A stretch of 64,000 nucleotides of DNA from assembly GCF_937863485.1 (NCBI RefSeq), contig NZ_CALMFY010000103.1:1-64000 (forward strand), written 5' to 3'. Below the pieces are notes generated by a model. It searched no databases. It had not been told where the DNA came from and saw only the letters and a list, made by a program, of their open reading frames with translations. Source of the DNA: an uncultured Nostoc sp. GTDB taxonomy: Bacteria > Cyanobacteriota > Cyanobacteriia > Cyanobacteriales > Nostocaceae. Each line of letters starts with the position of its first letter. Position 1 is the stretch's first letter. Both the position numbers and the translations under genes were made by a program. Below are positions 27,074-34,470 of the stretch, in pieces.

Positions 27074-29479
27074 TCAATTAATAACTAAGTAAATTCCCCA
27101 AATTGCCATTGCCCGTAAGTAAGTGCTAGCGCGGAAAGTACCAGCTGCGGTGATAGCTTCAGGCGTGCGAAATTGCAGACCATTGTCATAAATTTGCTGC
27201 ACCACAGCTTGTGTCAACCGAAACGCTTCATCTTTCATTCCCATTTGCACAAGAAAAGTCGCCAGCCCAAAGTTTATCCCCGTCCAGACTTCCAGGGGAT
27301 GAGTAGCTTTGGGGTTTTCTGGTGAACCGTCAGGACGAACACCGTTAGCAGCACCAAATTCACCATTGCAGAATTTCAAAAAGCACGCATCATAAACAGT
27401 TTTTAGGGCAGAGAGGGCGCGATCGCTCGGTACAATATCAGGTAAGTCTAGTAGTCGCGCGTAAAATTGTCCGCATAATTGATCTGCCATGACTACATCA
27501 GAACCACTTTCACTATCAAGTTTGTAATATTGCCCATTCCAGAGTTTTTCTTGGTAAATAGGAAGAGATTGTTCTAACCAAGCTTCATAGATGGATTTTT
27601 GCACCTCTGTGTTCTCTGTGCCTCTGCGGTTCGTTAACAAAACATCACTGATTGCGATCGCAGCCTCTAGCGCCGCTAACCACAACCCACCACAATAGGC
27701 GCTGACACCCTGCAACCGCCAATCATCAAAGGTTTGGTCAGGCGCACCAGAATTTTCCGGAATACCATCGCCATCAAGGTCAAAAGTTTTCAGGTAGTCG
27801 AGGGTTTGAACGATCGCACTCCAGCAATCTGCTAAAAATTCTACATCGTCAGCACCCGTGAGCAAAAAATCACGATATACTTGCAAGACAAAATCGCTAC
27901 CCAAATCCTTCCACAAATTGCAGTCTTGATAGCTGGTGTAATTGGTTTTCTCCCAAACATGCTCATTCGGTGCGCCTAAATCGTGAGGTGTTGCACCGGC
28001 GACTTTACGAACGGCGATCGGACTTTCTGCTTTAATTGTCATGTAATAGCCAATTATTCGGGGTGTGTCATCACCTTGAGGAATTGCGCGTGCAAATGCC
28101 CTGATCACCGACTTTTCTAGTTCTGGAAACAGCATCAGCAGGGCAAAAGAACCATACAGCCGCACATCTAGACTTTCATACCAACGGTAATCTAAGCACT
28201 CTAGCACTGCAAACTGACCGATGGGGTCAAGTTCTGATGCTGCACTCCAGAGAGTACCGCCACTGGTGAGGTTATAAAGCTCATTAAATAGAGCCATCTT
28301 AAACCAATTGGGTAAATCTTCCCGGTCGAGAATGGGTTTTTGCCAAATTTGAATTTGCGATCGCCAGCTTTGGTATTCTTGTAGCGCAGTGGATGCGATC
28401 GCCCAAGCATTATTTCCACTTTTATCAAAAAAGTCTGTGTATCTGCGATAATAGTTGACTCCAGCGGCAAATTCTGTAATGGGCAAATCCCAAGCGAGGA
28501 CAAAGGGGATTTCGAGAGTTTCCCCTGGTTGGAGAGTGAAACGGAGTGCGATCGCAGCCCCTAATTGTTCACCTTCTGCTACTGGATTTGTATCTATATT
28601 ATTGGGCAAAGAACCATCTTTAGCAAAGCTTTGCCACACCTGATCACCCGTACCATCAGGATTCCAGTGAGTGTGGTGAAATACTTCCACCTGGGGATGC
28701 TTCAGCGTTGCAATACACCAACTTCCATCTCCTTCCTTCAAAGTTTGATCACTACCAACCCGACCTAAAAGACAGCCAAACTGTTGTGTATTTTCAACTA
28801 TTTGGTTATAGTTTCCTTGACTTTCGCCCCAGCGCGGTTGGTATTCGTAAACCGGACTCCCATCATCGCGCACTCGCACTTGGGGAGATTTGAGGGCATT
28901 TGTAAACCAGCCCACCATATTTTGCCAAGTGAGCATGATGCTGAGAGTAATCGGTGCATCTATAGGGTTGTGAGCATTCCAGAGGAATATTGCCACAGGG
29001 TAGCTAGTTTCTTGGTAATTTCCTGCCCAGATGGGGGAAAATTGCTCACATGTCAACTGTGCTTGAAAGATATTTTCATACACAAACCAGCTACGTGGGT
29101 AGAGCGCGTGATAATTACCCGTCCCTTTTGTGGCGGGAAGTGTCGGATACCATTGCCAAGCCTTGAGAGTTCCATCATCGGGCGCTTGCGTAGATAAAGC
29201 GTAGGCTTGGGAAGATGTGCCATTGGATTCAAATACACTGAATTGACAAGCGGGAACATTTTTGAAGGTATGTTCACCACCGTCGATGTGCCACAGGTTA
29301 AAGTTTCCTTGTGAAGAACGACCGATGCAACCTGCACCAAAGCCACCTAAAGGCATACCATGCCAAGGGCCATCATCGATATTACTTGCGTAGCGGACGG
29401 TATAAGGTTTGTCCCAGCCTAAACCGATGGGACGGCTCCAAGTGCAAGAGGGAATTTCTGGAGAGAGTTGATTTGTCAT
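27074..29479 (-). CDS. GH116 family glycosidase (glucosylceramidase-like)
   Basis: The 801-residue protein has the GH116 layout: an N-terminal beta-sandwich (about 30-340, GMPLGGFGAGCIGRSSQGN) and a C-terminal (alpha/alpha)6 barrel (about 370-800). The nucleophile is E435 in DYRWYESLDVRLYGS. The acid/base aspartate lies in the segment GAPDQTFDDW (581-585). Relatives include human GBA2 and bacterial beta-glucosidases/xylosidases. There is no signal peptide, so it should act in the cytoplasm, perhaps on a glycolipid or imported glycoside; the substrate is unknown. Residues about 616-628 (NRRGTENTEVQKS) are encoded by a dispersed repeat inserted in frame. Confidence 0.9.
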   Translation of the reverse strand: MTNQLSPEIPSCTWSRPIGLGWDKPYTVRYASNIDDGPWHGMPLGGFGAGCIGRSSQGNFNLWHIDGGEHTFKNVPACQFSVFESNGTSSQAYALSTQAPDDGTLKAWQWYPTLPATKGTGNYHALYPRSWFVYENIFQAQLTCEQFSPIWAGNYQETSYPVAIFLWNAHNPIDAPITLSIMLTWQNMVGWFTNALKSPQVRVRDDGSPVYEYQPRWGESQGNYNQIVENTQQFGCLLGRVGSDQTLKEGDGSWCIATLKHPQVEVFHHTHWNPDGTGDQVWQSFAKDGSLPNNIDTNPVAEGEQLGAAIALRFTLQPGETLEIPFVLAWDLPITEFAAGVNYYRRYTDFFDKSGNNAWAIASTALQEYQSWRSQIQIWQKPILDREDLPNWFKMALFNELYNLTSGGTLWSAASELDPIGQFAVLECLDYRWYESLDVRLYGSFALLMLFPELEKSVIRAFARAIPQGDDTPRIIGYYMTIKAESPIAVRKVAGATPHDLGAPNEHVWEKTNYTSYQDCNLWKDLGSDFVLQVYRDFLLTGADDVEFLADCWSAIVQTLDYLKTFDLDGDGIPENSGAPDQTFDDWRLQGVSAYCGGLWLAALEAAIAISDVLLTNRRGTENTEVQKSIYEAWLEQSLPIYQEKLWNGQYYKLDSESGSDVVMADQLCGQFYARLLDLPDIVPSDRALSALKTVYDACFLKFCNGEFGAANGVRPDGSPENPKATHPLEVWTGINFGLATFLVQMGMKDEAFRLTQAVVQQIYDNGLQFRTPEAITAAGTFRASTYLRAMAIWGIYLVIN
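27596..27636. repeat. dispersed repeat fragment inside the GH116 gene
   Basis: On the minus strand it reads aacgaaccgcagaggcacag and continues agaacacagaggtgc. The same cassette is found in uvrA at 36229-36262 and in the intergenic repeats at 6579-6600 and 10381-10430. The frame is kept. Confidence 0.7.
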
Positions 29480-29874: not shown

Positions 29875-30348
29875 ATGTCCACAGCCCCAATTAGTGCAGC
29901 ACTAGCACAATCAGAGAGAGATGCTGTGTTGCAAGCGATCGCCACAATTAAAGAAAAGCTACCATTTTTAATTGATTTAAGTAACGAGGAGCGGAAAGCT
30001 TTACCCAAAATGGGAGATAAAAGCCGCGCCTTTGTAAGCAAGGCATTGGAGGTGGCGACACAGAATCCAGAGTTTTTACCGCGATCGTTTGACCTTAATG
30101 AGATGCGGAAAGACGTTCAATTATTTGAAGCTTTATATCCAGTATTACTGTCTTTGTCACAATTACAAGAGTTGCTGGATGATACTTCGCTAGCAGTGGG
30201 TAGTGAAGCTTATGCAGCCGCCTTGCAGGTGTATAACTATGCCAAAGCTAGTGGACAAGGCGCTGGTTTAGATGGAGTAGTTGAGGAAATGGGGCAAAGG
30301 TTCGCCCGTAAATCGCGGAAGTCCAAGCCTCAAGCAGCAGCGTTGTAG
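29875..30348 (+). CDS. conserved hypothetical protein
   Basis: The soluble, helical, 157-residue protein contains conserved blocks LPFLIDLSNEERKALPKMGD (about 35-54), SRAFVSKALEVATQNPEFLP (about 57-76), LLSLSQLQELLDDTSLAVGS and AAALQVYNYAKASGQG (about 126-141). I recognise it as a conserved hypothetical of scattered bacteria without a known function. There is no signal peptide, membrane segment or nucleotide motif; the C-terminus is basic (ARKSRKSKPQ). GGAG stands about 11 bases before the ATG. It has no operon partner: a MITE-like element lies upstream and a repeat block downstream. Confidence 0.75.
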   Translation: MSTAPISAALAQSERDAVLQAIATIKEKLPFLIDLSNEERKALPKMGDKSRAFVSKALEVATQNPEFLPRSFDLNEMRKDVQLFEALYPVLLSLSQLQELLDDTSLAVGSEAYAAALQVYNYAKASGQGAGLDGVVEEMGQRFARKSRKSKPQAAAL

Positions 30349-30399
30349 AAAATAGCTTGGTGATTGCACTTCTAAGGTGCAATGTTGAGGCTCAGAACT

Positions 30400-30640
30400 C
30401 GGATGTTGGAGTAAATTGCTCGGCGTTCCGAGTTCTGAACTCCAAGCTTCACTCTCAAAACATAAAATTTCGAGATGAGAACACGAAACTTGAAGCTCTG
30501 AACAGCAACGTCCGAGATCCAAGAGTAAATAATGGAGAGTGGAGAGCAATCACTCTCCTTTTTAACTCGGAACTTCGTGCTTTGAACAGCAACATCCGAG
30601 ATCCAAGAGTGAATGATAGTGAGTCAGGAGCGATCGCTTC
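30400..30640. repeat. divergent direct repeats left of the caspase module
   Basis: The unit gaacagcaacgtccgagatc followed by caagagtaaa occurs at about 30499-30527 and again at about 30583-30612. It sits among units of the form cgagttctgaactcc and ggaacttcgtgctttgaac. Very similar text occurs at 33700-33825, on the other side of the caspase gene. No gene seen; the rest of the gap to 31001 holds palindromic ccctctcc-type repeats (about 30880-30960). Confidence 0.7.
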
Positions 30641-31001: not shown

Positions 31002-31337
31002 TTATTGCTTCTTCTCAGGAAACTTATACTTAACCTCAATTTCAAAATTACTCTCCGCCGACCCTTCAGTTAAAAACGGAATGCCAGTTTTCCCACCCAG
31101 CTTGATGCCAAACTTAACTGTTACCTCCTCAGCATCAGGTAAATTCTTGAATGCACCAACAGCTAACTTGGCATAATTACGAATTCTGCCCTGAAATTCT
31201 TGAATGTTTAGCGTGGGTAAACCATCACGGTATCCCGGTTCCTCTTCTTCTGGAACTTCAGAAGCGGTATTTGATTCTACGTAGATTTCGTACTCTTGAT
31301 CGTCTTCTTTGATAATTAAACGTTGCACTTTTGACAT
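31002..31337 (-). CDS. TRYCO1 (trypsin-co-occurring domain 1) protein
   Basis: The 111-residue protein matches the small TRYCO1 / CU044_2847 family: an N-terminal strand pair (KVQRLIIKEDDQEYEIYVES), a central helix (IRNYAKLAVGAFKNL) and the hallmark KFGIKLGGKTGIPFLTEGSA before a final strand (FEIEVKYKF). TRYCO1 proteins accompany trypsin-like, caspase-like or STAND proteins in bacterial conflict systems and may act as adaptors or regulators. The gene is divergent from the caspase-STAND gene, with only 69 bases between their starts, so a shared control region is likely. Confidence 0.8.
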   Translation of the reverse strand: MSKVQRLIIKEDDQEYEIYVESNTASEVPEEEEPGYRDGLPTLNIQEFQGRIRNYAKLAVGAFKNLPDAEEVTVKFGIKLGGKTGIPFLTEGSAESNFEIEVKYKFPEKKQ

Positions 31338-31406
31338 AATAGTCTCAGCTACTCTTGAAGTTATTCTTAGTAAGATTAGGTCAAAACGGATGCCAGGTTA
31401 GATTAT

Positions 31407-33524
31407 ATGGCTAGATATGCACTGGTGTTGGGAATTGCTAAGTATGACAATTTCACCAACCTACCTAAGGCTGTCAATGATGCTGAACACATCGCCCAAC
31501 TGCTGCGCGAACAAGGTAGATTTGATGTTCAGCCTTTACCTGGCAAGTTAATCGAGAGTGAGAATCGCTGGCAAATCACACCTGATAAAAAGTTAACTGG
31601 TAAAGAACTCGGACAAGCACTGAGAATATTTTTGTTAGAAAAAGCCAAAGGTGCGGAGGCATTAATTTATTTTGCCGGACATGGATTTGAAGCACCCAGC
31701 CTGACAGGTGAAGCGAAAGGGTATTTGGCAACATCAGATTGTAACAAGGATGGACAAAATGGGATCGCCTTTGATGACCTCAACACTTTAATCAGTAAAT
31801 CTCAACTCAGCAGTTTGGTAGTACTGCTGGATTGCTGCTATGCTGGCTCTTTATTAGAGAGAAGTTTTATCAATTCTGGTTTCTCCGTTTTCAATAGCAA
31901 ACAAGACTACTGCTTAATTACAGCCTCCCGCGCTTTTGAAAGAGCGCGGGAAGATGCAGAAGGTGGAATTTTCACCAAAGCCGTCATTAAAGGACTGTCT
32001 GAAGATAAAGCTGATGAGACTACAGGAGAAGTCAATGCCAACGACTTGATGAGCTTCGTATCGCGGGAACTCAAGGGAAGTGGACAAGAAGCAATTTACA
32101 TGGGTGGCGGTAGGTCAATTCCTTTGGTTTGGTATTCAGCAAAGAATCAGGTAGCGGCTGCGGTGGTGAGTGAAGAATCTCCTTATCGGGGATTACAAGC
32201 TTTTGACAAAGAACACGCCAAGTTCTTTTTTGGTCGGCAAAAAGTAGTTAGCTTAATTCAACAAAAACTCACTCAAGCTAACTTTATTCCCATCATTGGC
32301 GCTTCCGGGAGTGGTAAATCTTCCGTTGTGCGGGCAGGTTTGATTCCAGTGTTAGAAAAAAATGGTTGGCGAATCTTAGAACCAATTTTGCCTGGAGTTC
32401 AACCTTTAGCAGAGTTAAAACGAGCCTTTACACAGTTATTTGAACGCACGGAAATTAGGGAAATCTCGGCTCTCATTGACACAGAAGGTTTATCTACCGT
32501 AATTTCTAAGCTGACTGGTTCTGAGCGTTGCTTGTTGGTGGTAGATCAATTTGAAGAAATTTTTACCCTTGGTTCTCAGGAAGAAGAAAGACAGCGATTC
32601 ATTGAGTTGTTAACCCAAGTTTCTCAAGGACGGTTAGCAATTGTCACCACGATGCGAGCTGATTTTCTGGAATACTGTTTAAACTATGAATCGCTGACGC
32701 AACTAATTCAGGAACAAGCGGTGTATATGCCGCCATTACTAGGGGCAGAATTAGAAGAAGCGATCGCATCCCCAGCCAACTTACAAGGTTATCAGTTAGA
32801 AAGAGGTTTACTCGGAACGATCCAGCAAGAAGTGGTGGGACAAGAGAAAGGCTGCTTACCTCTGTTGCAGTTTGCGCTGACGGAACTTTGGGAACACCGC
32901 GATCAGCAAGCATATCAGTTGACAGTGGTCAAGTATAAGGAACTGGGTGGAGTAACTGGGGCGCTAAATCGTCACGCAGAAAATCTGTATGAAAGTTTTA
33001 CTGAACAGCAGCAAGATTGGGTGAAGCGGATTTTCTTAAAACTGGTGCGTACTGGGGCACAAGCTAAGGATACTCGACAATGGCAAGCTAAAACTAAATT
33101 ATTGAGTATTGCTGGTGAGAACCGAGATGAGCAGCAAGTCATTAATGATGTTTTAGAAAAGCTGATTAAAGAACGCTTAATAGTACTTGACTGCGAACTA
33201 ACAGGAGAAGTTTGGGTTGATTTAGCTCACGAAGCTTTGATGGAAGGTTGGGAAAGGTTTGCTAAGTGGCGTAAAACAGGACAGAAACTTAGGCGATTAC
33301 GCGATCAAATCGAAGATGCTCTACGGATATGGGAGGAAGAACCAAGCGATGAAAATTTAATGATGGGGGGATTACTGGCTAAAGTGCAAGAGATATGGTC
33401 AGAACTTGAATCGGATTTAGACCCCGCAGCTAGAGAGTTTTATCAGCAGAGTGATGCCCAGGAAAAACAACGAAAAACAGCAGAAACCTTCTACAAAATA
33501 CATCTATCCGAAAATTCTGCATAG
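31407..33524 (+). CDS. caspase-like (C14) - STAND ATPase protein
   Basis: The 705-residue protein starts with a caspase/metacaspase domain (1-245), with catalytic His H92 (YFAGHGFE) and Cys C144 (LLDCCYAGS). The linker SPYRGLQAFDKEHAKFFFGR at about 258-277 begins a STAND-type NTPase, with Walker A GASGSGKSS at 298-306 and Walker B LLVVDQFEEIF around D380, then winged-helix and helical parts to about 690. Such proteins usually end in WD40 or TPR sensor repeats; here the chain stops after a short coiled linker (DAQEKQRKTAETF). The stop is TAG, and the same frame stays open for 34 more codons (to 33629). It probably acts as a stimulus-gated cell-death protease. Confidence 0.88.
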   Translation: MARYALVLGIAKYDNFTNLPKAVNDAEHIAQLLREQGRFDVQPLPGKLIESENRWQITPDKKLTGKELGQALRIFLLEKAKGAEALIYFAGHGFEAPSLTGEAKGYLATSDCNKDGQNGIAFDDLNTLISKSQLSSLVVLLDCCYAGSLLERSFINSGFSVFNSKQDYCLITASRAFERAREDAEGGIFTKAVIKGLSEDKADETTGEVNANDLMSFVSRELKGSGQEAIYMGGGRSIPLVWYSAKNQVAAAVVSEESPYRGLQAFDKEHAKFFFGRQKVVSLIQQKLTQANFIPIIGASGSGKSSVVRAGLIPVLEKNGWRILEPILPGVQPLAELKRAFTQLFERTEIREISALIDTEGLSTVISKLTGSERCLLVVDQFEEIFTLGSQEEERQRFIELLTQVSQGRLAIVTTMRADFLEYCLNYESLTQLIQEQAVYMPPLLGAELEEAIASPANLQGYQLERGLLGTIQQEVVGQEKGCLPLLQFALTELWEHRDQQAYQLTVVKYKELGGVTGALNRHAENLYESFTEQQQDWVKRIFLKLVRTGAQAKDTRQWQAKTKLLSIAGENRDEQQVINDVLEKLIKERLIVLDCELTGEVWVDLAHEALMEGWERFAKWRKTGQKLRRLRDQIEDALRIWEEEPSDENLMMGGLLAKVQEIWSELESDLDPAAREFYQQSDAQEKQRKTAETFYKIHLSENSA

Positions 33525-33629
33525 AATTCTAAATTCTCTAGCGATCGCCTCCTTAACTATCCCATCTTCACCAATCCGCAAACCGAGGAAACAAAAGCCG
33601 CCTACGAAGTCTGCCGTAAATATGTTTGA
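33525..33629 (+). pseudogene. in-frame tail beyond the caspase-STAND stop codon
   Basis: Directly after the TAG at 33522-33524 the same frame continues for 34 codons. It contains KFSSDRLLNYPIFTNPQTEE and KAAYEVCRKYV before a TGA at 33627. The text looks like ordinary protein, so the TAG may be a nonsense mutation, or the tail may be the remnant of a lost C-terminal domain. Family not recognised. Confidence 0.4.
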
Positions 33630-33689
33630 AGTAAAAAAGAAGTTAAAAGTAGGGATTAATGAGAAAAAATAGGAGAAATAAACCTCTAA

Positions 33690-33830
33690 TTTGCAATGTT
33701 GAGGCTCATAACTCCAGTTTTCACCTTTGAACTCGAAACTTCGACCTCTGAACTCCGAACTTCAACCTTTTTACTCGGAACTTCGACCTCTGAACTGAAA
33801 CAACCGAGATCCAAGGGTCAATTATTGTGA
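33690..33830. repeat. repeat block right of the caspase module
   Basis: Three to four units of ggaacttcgacctctgaact type, ending in ccgagatccaaggg, are relatives of the block at 30400-30640. Together they flank the TRYCO1 / caspase-STAND genes on both sides in the same orientation. Confidence 0.65.
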
Positions 33831-33919
33831 GTGAAGGGCGATTATTTAAGAGTTAACCACAATTAATATCAAGTTCAGGTCAACCCCAAAATTAAATCAT
33901 CTCATCAACTACCTAAAAC

Positions 33920-34231
33920 TTACTCGTAATGCGTCCACATCCGAATTATCTTGACTACTTGTTCGGATTCGATGACTTCATATACCAACCGATGCTGTAT
34001 GTTTATCCTGCGAGAATACGCACCTGATAAATCACCAACCAGCTTTTCATAAGGTGGAGGATTTTGAAAGGGATTTTTTTTAAGAACTACAAGCAACTCC
34101 TCAGCTTTTTCCTTTAAATTACTAGAAGCTAACTTCTTGGCATCTTTTTGCGCTTGTTTTGTGTAAACCAACCTCCAACTCAGTTCTTCAGAATTCGGAA
34201 GTGGCTCTCCATTACTGCGCTGACTCACCAA
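33920..34231 (-). CDS. YoeB/Txe-type toxin
   Basis: The 103-residue RelE-superfamily toxin of the Txe/YoeB branch is a ribosome-dependent mRNA endonuclease. Landmarks are WRLVYTKQAQKDAKKL (about 19-34), a conserved KNPF then PPPYEKLVGDLSGAYSRRIN (about 52-77) and the terminal RMWTHYE with the catalytic C-terminal His-Tyr. An N-terminal extension of about 15 residues is longer than in E. coli YoeB. Its start overlaps the end of the antitoxin gene by 7 bases, the usual translational coupling of such pairs. Confidence 0.9.
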   Translation of the reverse strand: MVSQRSNGEPLPNSEELSWRLVYTKQAQKDAKKLASSNLKEKAEELLVVLKKNPFQNPPPYEKLVGDLSGAYSRRINIQHRLVYEVIESEQVVKIIRMWTHYE

Positions 34232-34470
34232 TCCAACTCCTCATCGCATTCTTGGATCGGAGTTGCTAGTCCTTCTTTTATAGATTCTCCCATTCCAGGT
34301 ATAGATAACAAGTAAAGAGTCTCCTGAATTGCAGACCAGTCTTTTTCCGCCAGCAGAATCGCATTACCACGTTCACCCTGAATGATCACAGGCTTACCCT
34401 GCTGTGCAACTTGGTCTATCAGTTCTTGTAAATTATTTTGAGCGTCGTTGACGGGAAGCGAAGACATCAT
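34225..34470 (-). CDS. YefM/Phd-type antitoxin
   Basis: The 81-residue antitoxin starts MMSSLPVNDAQNNLQELIDQ and carries the Phd/YefM fold with KPVIIQGERGNAILLAEKDW (about 32-51). The N-terminal part binds DNA and represses the operon; the acidic C-terminus (ECDEELDW) should wrap the toxin. It is placed before, and overlaps, the YoeB-type toxin gene. A second Met directly follows the first, so the exact start is uncertain by one residue. Confidence 0.88.
   Translation of the reverse strand: MMSSLPVNDAQNNLQELIDQVAQQGKPVIIQGERGNAILLAEKDWSAIQETLYLLSIPGMGESIKEGLATPIQECDEELDW

Follow-up and report, generated by a model that had tools for sequence, protein, structure and literature searches.

Organization of the locus

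The window analysed here is a stretch of 64,000 nt from an uncultured Nostoc sp. (assembly GCF_937863485.1, contig NZ_CALMFY010000103.1, positions 1 to 64,000 of the forward strand), and the element under study is a pair of divergently oriented genes near its middle. One encodes a small TRYCO1 protein (CU044_2847 family), the other a protein in which a caspase (Peptidase C14) domain is followed by an nSTAND1 NTPase domain, a combination referred to hereafter as the head (Table 1; compared loci are given by their L numbers). In this filamentous cyanobacterium the pair resembles a switch for cell death or immunity. Very probably the locus belongs to a conserved two-gene system, TRYCO1 plus a divergent caspase-nSTAND1 protein with an exchangeable C-terminal module, but has lost its sensor by deletion.

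Open frames, Pfam matches and alignment confirmed the preliminary description of a 111-residue TRYCO1 protein and a caspase-STAND protein with the H92/C144 dyad, encoded on opposite strands 69 bases apart. TRYCO1 scored well above the cut-offs of both PF19493 (E 2.5e-17; 63.7 bits against 24.6), which places it in Trypco1, and NF041216 (E 5.4e-18; 65.5 bits against 23). In Pfam the large protein matched Peptidase_C14 from residue 3 onwards (E 2.9e-18) and nSTAND1 with 375.8 bits (E 4.6e-112), both Walker motifs being present. The His-Cys dyad characteristic of orthocaspases is kept in all 76 aligned heads, while G303, K304 and S305 of nSTAND1 are found in 74 and D380, E383 and E384 in 73 of them. 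The predicted caspase part matched the fold of MALT1 and metacaspases in a structure search, and the predicted STAND part that of CED-4, NRC and Orc/Cdc6. The TRYCO1 model was poor (pLDDT 58, pTM 0.40) and gave no match in the PDB at E ≤ 0.001. No transmembrane-like segment could be seen in TRYCO1 by hydropathy, the top 19-residue mean being 0.72 in the window and at most 1.34 across 79 TRYCO1 proteins, and a promoter scan of the intergenic region gave no sigma-70 consensus match.

Judged from these domains, the make-up appears to be that of predicted nucleoside triphosphate (NTP)-dependent conflict systems, in agreement with the preliminary description. With PADLOC-DB, the large protein matched a caspase profile (4.6e-17) and, weakly, mad3 (8e-4) and MTase_II (0.01); TRYCO1 had no match, and no single known anti-phage system was matched by both genes. 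Pfam detected no trypsin, WD40 or TPR in the window caspase-STAND protein, and trypsin was also absent from the three neighbour proteins scanned, which are part of the window genes; that is, the neighbouring trypsin after whose association Trypco1 was named was not seen among the scanned window proteins. Nor does the frame include the C-terminal superstructure or sensor expected of nSTAND1 proteins, a WD40 3′ remnant being present only after the stop codon. The interval first delimited, ending at 33629, reaches beyond that stop; the stretch past it lies outside the open gene and holds this remnant. No second full-length caspase-STAND copy occurs in the same genome.

Table 1. Features of the TRYCO1/caspase-nSTAND1 locus in the window
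Feature	Position	Strand	Basis or location
Dispersed repeat family copies, upstream bracket	30368..30634	+	
TRYCO1 (CU044_2847 family) protein, 111 residues, intact	31002..31337	-	PF19493, NF041216, hydropathy
Divergent intergenic region, 69 bases	31338..31406	.	Alignable across close relatives
Complete caspase-nSTAND1 open frame, 705 residues	31407..33524	+	
Caspase (Peptidase C14) domain, residues 1-239	31407..32123	+	Pfam, alignment, predicted fold
Codon of catalytic H92	31680-31682	+	Caspase domain
Codon of catalytic C144	31836-31838	+	Caspase domain
nSTAND1 NTPase, residues 259-648	32181..33350	+	Pfam, alignment, predicted fold
Walker A (GASGSGKS)	residues 298-305	+	nSTAND1 domain
Walker B	around D380	+	nSTAND1 domain
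Filler at deletion junction, with stop codon TAG (33522-33524)	33475..33542	+	
WD40 module C-terminal-end remnant (scar), 38 codons, in-frame stop inside	33543..33656	+	tblastn, DNA matches
Dispersed repeat family copies, downstream bracket	33682..33842	+	Same family as upstream bracket

Deletion of the C-terminal module

Close relatives align with the window protein only up to residue ~690 and then continue, and the window frame stops ~15 residues past the point where most of them enter a C-terminal module. At 57-83% identity, relatives with the whole head open have 826-1422 codons (a contig end truncates some of these). Among the relatives there are also broken ones (L182, with 145 codons, and L183). 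We collected 80 paired frames, of which 68 could be labelled by module, the other 12 being excluded because they were broken, were short or ran into a contig end. A module follows the head in 65 of the 68, namely WD40 in 40, pentapeptide repeats in 11, a histidine kinase in 9 and single other types in 5 (11 WD40, 2 pentapeptide and 2 histidine kinase labels were checked with Pfam, the rest of these being assigned by BLAST clustering). Among the representatives scanned with Pfam, the head is followed by WD40, HisKA plus HATPase_c (L149, L160), Guanylate_cyc (L165), SpoIIE (L275), CHASE2 (L232), pentapeptide repeats (L181, L228), Trypsin_2 (L178) or a weak phycobilisome-like match (L156), and the module of L161 has no known Pfam match. 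In L178 (3012-5969) the caspase-nSTAND1 head is fused to a C-terminal trypsin-like peptidase, such that two peptidases are united in one protein; TRYCO1 was not found in the 10-kb stretch fetched around it. Only three heads are module-less: the window copy, L169 (40-residue tail) and L223 (63-residue tail).

At the DNA level, the stretch following the window stop codon matches the 3′ ends of WD40 parts in relatives (73-92% identity). By tblastn the scar, which contains one stop, matched the end of the L271 protein over 38 residues at 76% identity (E 6.8e-14). Because this remnant lies just past the stop codon, the window copy has lost its module by a deletion, which falls between about 33475 and 33543. 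Since nearly all labelled heads carry a module and the window copy keeps the WD40 scar, the two-gene form without a sensor is derived. The absence of trypsin, WD40 and TPR had been described as an unusual form, which is accurate for the window protein but does not describe the native form; for the same reasons the suggestion that TRYCO1 might be the sensor of a native two-gene form is not supported. Close homologues that always carry C-terminal modules had been named as the observation that would speak against that form, and this is nearly what we found, L169 and L223 being likewise without one.

The junction itself is occupied by 68 bases of filler that include the stop codon. The whole junction was found in no other of the 53 genus genomes, two of which show partial matches of 32-35 bases. 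The first part of the filler (33465-33499) resembles a gene of one of these 53 genomes that has an NMT1-like Pfam match: 35 bases at its 3′ end are 86% identical and read in the same frame. In the own genome, the best relative of that gene matched over 20 bases. This is suggestive at most: the filler may be a captured gene fragment, or the match may be due to chance. The window copy may have lost its WD40 module directly, or may have lost another module that had replaced WD40. We also considered a sensor supplied in trans, and rejected it: no separate copy of the lost module was seen in the own genome, where a search with the L271 WD40 module (E up to 1e-10) returned only other WD40 stretches of at most 50% identity (40% for the best-scoring one), none covering the last 38 residues.

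Conservation of the divergent pair

A survey of 145 family genomes found TRYCO1 in 62 of them, at 83 places, the surroundings of which were classed by tblastn. Of these places, 60 have a caspase or caspase-STAND frame, intact or broken, that is divergent to TRYCO1, which bears out the conserved divergent pairing proposed in the preliminary description; among these 60 first frames, 8 are shorter than 500 codons because of breakage or a contig end, and some have a match to the caspase part alone. At 2 places (L198, L209) only a remnant of a divergent caspase start is left, and 7 were otherwise arranged or not assessable (e.g. L208, at a contig end). At one place (L207, 3417-4472) a CHAT-like frame (Pfam 5.7e-10) is divergent to TRYCO1 with 63 bases between, possibly representing another caspase-clan partner of TRYCO1. 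In L215 (2753-6276) and L218 (4268-8321), the two trypsin loci scanned with Pfam, TRYCO1 immediately precedes the gene of a trypsin-NACHT-HEAT protein and has the same orientation; this is the classical Trypco1-trypsin pairing, within the same family.

Within the genus, TRYCO1 was found in 44 of 53 genomes, and all 20 newly fetched places (drawn from about 76 listed, the 11 closest included) show the divergent pair. Most of the closest loci have an intergenic gap of 66-76 bases; a few have a longer one (199 in L277), as do more distant loci. At the phylum level, TRYCO1 was present in 62 of 386 genomes; of the 30 loci returned, all with short flanks, 5 matched caspase (strongly in 4 cases) and 9 trypsin, leaving 16 without either. 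Conversely, 37 of the 80 loci retrieved with caspase-STAND were examined, the other 43 matching mainly the STAND part, and a divergent TRYCO1 was present at 22 of the 37.

Three further TRYCO1 matches occur in the own genome (G000: C113:153828-154133, C113:93640-93936 and C166:97394-97573). No caspase or trypsin was found in the examined flanks of the first (L293, L185) and the last (L184). Furthermore, the charges at residues 83 and 91 of TRYCO1 are swapped reciprocally: of 58 aligned sequences, 28 have K-E and 28 have E-K, which could reflect one old event between two clades.

Module exchange and separate histories of caspase and STAND

In five of the nine histidine-kinase versions (L150, L155, L157, L159 and L279), a WD40 end lies directly after the kinase stop codon, 74 residues of it remaining in L279. 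Since these WD40 ends are located past the kinase stop, the kinase has replaced a WD40 module in these five loci, and modules are thus swapped at one junction. When the module labels were mapped, the STAND tree with 68 rows called for no fewer than 16 changes and each of the two 44-row trees for no fewer than 12.

The head itself also appears to be composite. L279 is 95-98% identical to the window protein at residues 1-160 and 45% at 321-360, while L164, L284 and L288 show 20-58% over 1-240 and mostly 72-88% over 281-560 (with one 40% block, in L284). In the caspase tree, 17 rows group together with a support of 100. The STAND tree does not recover this clade, and enforcing it there lowered the log-likelihood by 381 (approximately unbiased (AU) test, p = 1e-4). 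Reciprocally, a STAND clade of 13 rows was rejected by the caspase tree (AU p = 2e-4) and by the TRYCO1 tree (AU p = 2e-51), the latter agreeing with the caspase clade (support 98.8). The tested clades were named after viewing the trees, which makes these p-values optimistic; the differences in likelihood, however, are large. Moreover, the correlation of distances drops along the gene, from 0.74 between TRYCO1 and caspase to 0.41 between TRYCO1 and the end of STAND (47 rows). According to the trees, the caspase-TRYCO1 unit and the STAND domain have had separate histories (AU p of 2e-4 or less).

In 33 of the 61 relative loci examined, the module is adjoined by homologues of genes that flank it in the window (those at 27074-29479 and 29875-30348, or the YoeB/YefM pair described below), a comparison in which flank lengths are unequal and some genomes occur twice, and in which a miss is not evidence of another site. 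Because loci of both caspase clades are among those sharing the flanking genes (e.g. L277-L279, L281-L286), alleles of both clades occupy one chromosomal site. The bracketing of the module by related repeats, noted earlier, is real but not special, the repeat being a dispersed family with 25 matches in the own genome; given this dispersal and the flanking genes shared by the 33 loci, bracketing was discarded as a sign of mobility. Just beyond the downstream end of the module, at 33920-34470, the window has a toxin-antitoxin pair of YoeB and YefM/Phd type, and the same pair adjoins the module in L166, L167, L170 and L282.

Comparison with known systems

Fusions of caspase with WD40 and with HisKA/HATPase_c are already known from cyanobacteria: orthocaspases (beta metacaspases) with WD40, CHASE2 and pentapeptide domains have been on record since 2010 (PMC2853523) and with HATPase_c/HisKA domains since 2021 (PMC8283722). 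The passages of these two papers on such proteins make no mention of TRYCO1, a divergent pair, WD40 scars or module exchange at one junction, and a literature search for a divergently arranged orthocaspase found no paper.

The closest parallel is the EACC1-caspase two-gene system (System 4) of multicellular bacteria, which, as outlined in PMC7159879, combines a small constant partner gene with a constant N-terminal caspase and many C-terminal domains, including STAND NTPases. There, however, the partner is a 5′ gene whose product has one transmembrane helix, whereas TRYCO1 has no transmembrane-like segment and is encoded on the opposite strand; the window caspase also scored only 85.4 bits with NF047832, the EACC1-associated caspase type (cut-off 140). 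The EACC2/TRADD-N system, according to the account in PMC8195603, likewise has a constant caspase and a variable C-terminus including STAND and CHASE2 domains, but the EACC2 domain precedes the caspase and the partner is TRADD-N, whereas here the caspase match begins at the very N-terminus and the partner is TRYCO1. The organization matches that of both systems, but their defining features were looked for here and not found. In the VMAP ternary systems, as presented in parts of PMC7159879 and PMC10907252, the same small domain family is found beside a peptidase gene, although that peptidase is a trypsin and not a caspase-nSTAND1. The bacterial CARD-NLR and LypABC systems resemble the present one in coupling a STAND-type ATPase to a peptidase, with lysis or death as the outcome (PMC13236601); they differ in using trypsin-like peptidases, a CARD domain and separate genes, and the passages of that paper describing them mention neither TRYCO1 nor a caspase-STAND fusion.

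Proposed mechanism and alternative explanations

The pairing, the intact head, the scarred deletion, the module exchange and the separate caspase and STAND histories are observed, and we infer signal sensing, oligomerization, proteolysis and outcome, as well as the loss of the usual triggering in the window copy. In complete members, the C-terminal module, most often a WD40 propeller, would receive a signal, leading to ATP-dependent assembly of nSTAND1 by analogy with STAND proteins (following models put forward in PMC7159879), and assembly would switch on the N-terminal caspase by proximity. The active caspase would cleave its targets, probably after Arg or Lys, as orthocaspases are reported to cleave after positively charged residues (PMC6426788), and cleavage would result in cell death or arrest. 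TRYCO1 may work alongside the caspase part, whether as a substrate, an adaptor or a restraint; its association with two unrelated peptidases, caspase and trypsin, would fit such a role. In the window copy, an internal deletion took the module and left 38 WD40-end codons, with the head and TRYCO1 open and catalytically complete, and this copy could presumably no longer be triggered in the usual way. The locus may then be read as a member, broken and possibly sensor-independent, of a conflict system made up of TRYCO1, caspase-nSTAND1 and a variable module, loss of sensing being the plain reading and a sensor-independent role a possible one.

Several observations weigh against a conserved pair whose modules are exchanged at one junction and whose window copy was shortened by deletion. 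As many as 23 of the 83 TRYCO1 places in the family are without a divergent caspase frame, including 6 with a co-directional trypsin gene (L215-L219 and L221) and 7 with TRYCO1 fragments without partner. In the converse check, 15 of the 37 caspase-STAND loci lack TRYCO1, of which 14 are at ≤41% identity and one is cut at the contig start, and L168, L174, L178 and L180 have a full head with no TRYCO1 in the stretch examined. As the heads without TRYCO1 are mostly more distant ones, with these four in addition, pairing is near-complete in the clade of the window and loose beyond it. Among relatives, scars were seen beside the histidine-kinase type only: no WD40 scar was detected within 1.5 kb (E 1e-3) in kinase versions L149, L151, L160 and L288, nor within 1.5 kb in the cyclase, SpoIIE, CHASE2, Trypsin_2 and phycobilisome-like types. 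The tracking of TRYCO1 with caspase may be plain linkage, and the deletion is known from a draft assembly of 250 contigs. This last point, together with the repetitiveness of WD40 arrays, could suggest that the missing module is an artefact of assembling a repeat-rich WD40 gene. However, a collapse should leave at least one repeat, whereas none is present here but 68 bases of other sequence with a stop; apart from a 16-base match, this other sequence occurs nowhere else in the assembly, and the 3′ flank continues like that of L170, such that an artefact is very improbable.

The short form might instead be a working, sensor-independent two-gene system, with TRYCO1 as the sensor or trigger of the caspase-STAND protein. 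The openness of both frames, the retention of every catalytic residue and the existence of two further module-less heads (L169, L223) are in its favour, as are the low pairwise ratios of non-synonymous to synonymous substitution rates (dN/dS) between the window and 11 relatives (0.08-0.19 for TRYCO1 and 0.06-0.14 for the caspase part, against 0.15-0.38 for STAND). Yet most of the elapsed time precedes the deletion, so that low dN/dS mostly reflects that period and is no proof that the short copy works. Given also the modules on 65 of the 68 heads, the WD40 scar and a complete junction confined to the window among the genus genomes, this explanation is decidedly unlikely. A unit resembling a toxin-antitoxin system, in which TRYCO1 restrains the caspase, the sensor only relieves the restraint, and TRYCO1 keeps the caspase silent once the sensor is lost, would account for the conserved divergent pairing with its short gaps, for the co-segregation of TRYCO1 with caspase and not STAND, and for the tolerance of a catalytically complete head without sensor by the cell. 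Linkage alone could explain the co-segregation, though, TRYCO1 is not specific to caspase in that it occurs elsewhere beside an unrelated trypsin gene, and caspase-STAND relatives without a nearby TRYCO1 do exist (the four loci above and more distant ones), so that restraint can be entertained only tentatively. A broader and rather doubtful reading is that Nostoc-like cyanobacteria have, at a fixed chromosomal site, a bacterial counterpart of an R-gene or het locus: the TRYCO1-caspase unit would be kept, STAND and the terminal module (WD40, kinase, cyclase, phosphatase) would be reshuffled by recombination, leaving WD40 scars, and the window allele would be a natural sensor deletion, with TRYCO1 checking an armed caspase-STAND head.

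The window thus holds a damaged representative of an organization that parallels the published EACC1 and EACC2 systems. The caspase-based conflict systems predicted for multicellular bacteria gain, after EACC1 and EACC2, a third constant partner in TRYCO1, which is tied to the caspase part of an NLR-like protein, and the scars beside the kinase versions offer direct evidence for exchange of terminal modules at one junction. The window copy amounts to a ready-made sensor-deletion mutant: if its head is silent without the sensor, this would mean either that activation requires the sensor or that the caspase is held back by TRYCO1.
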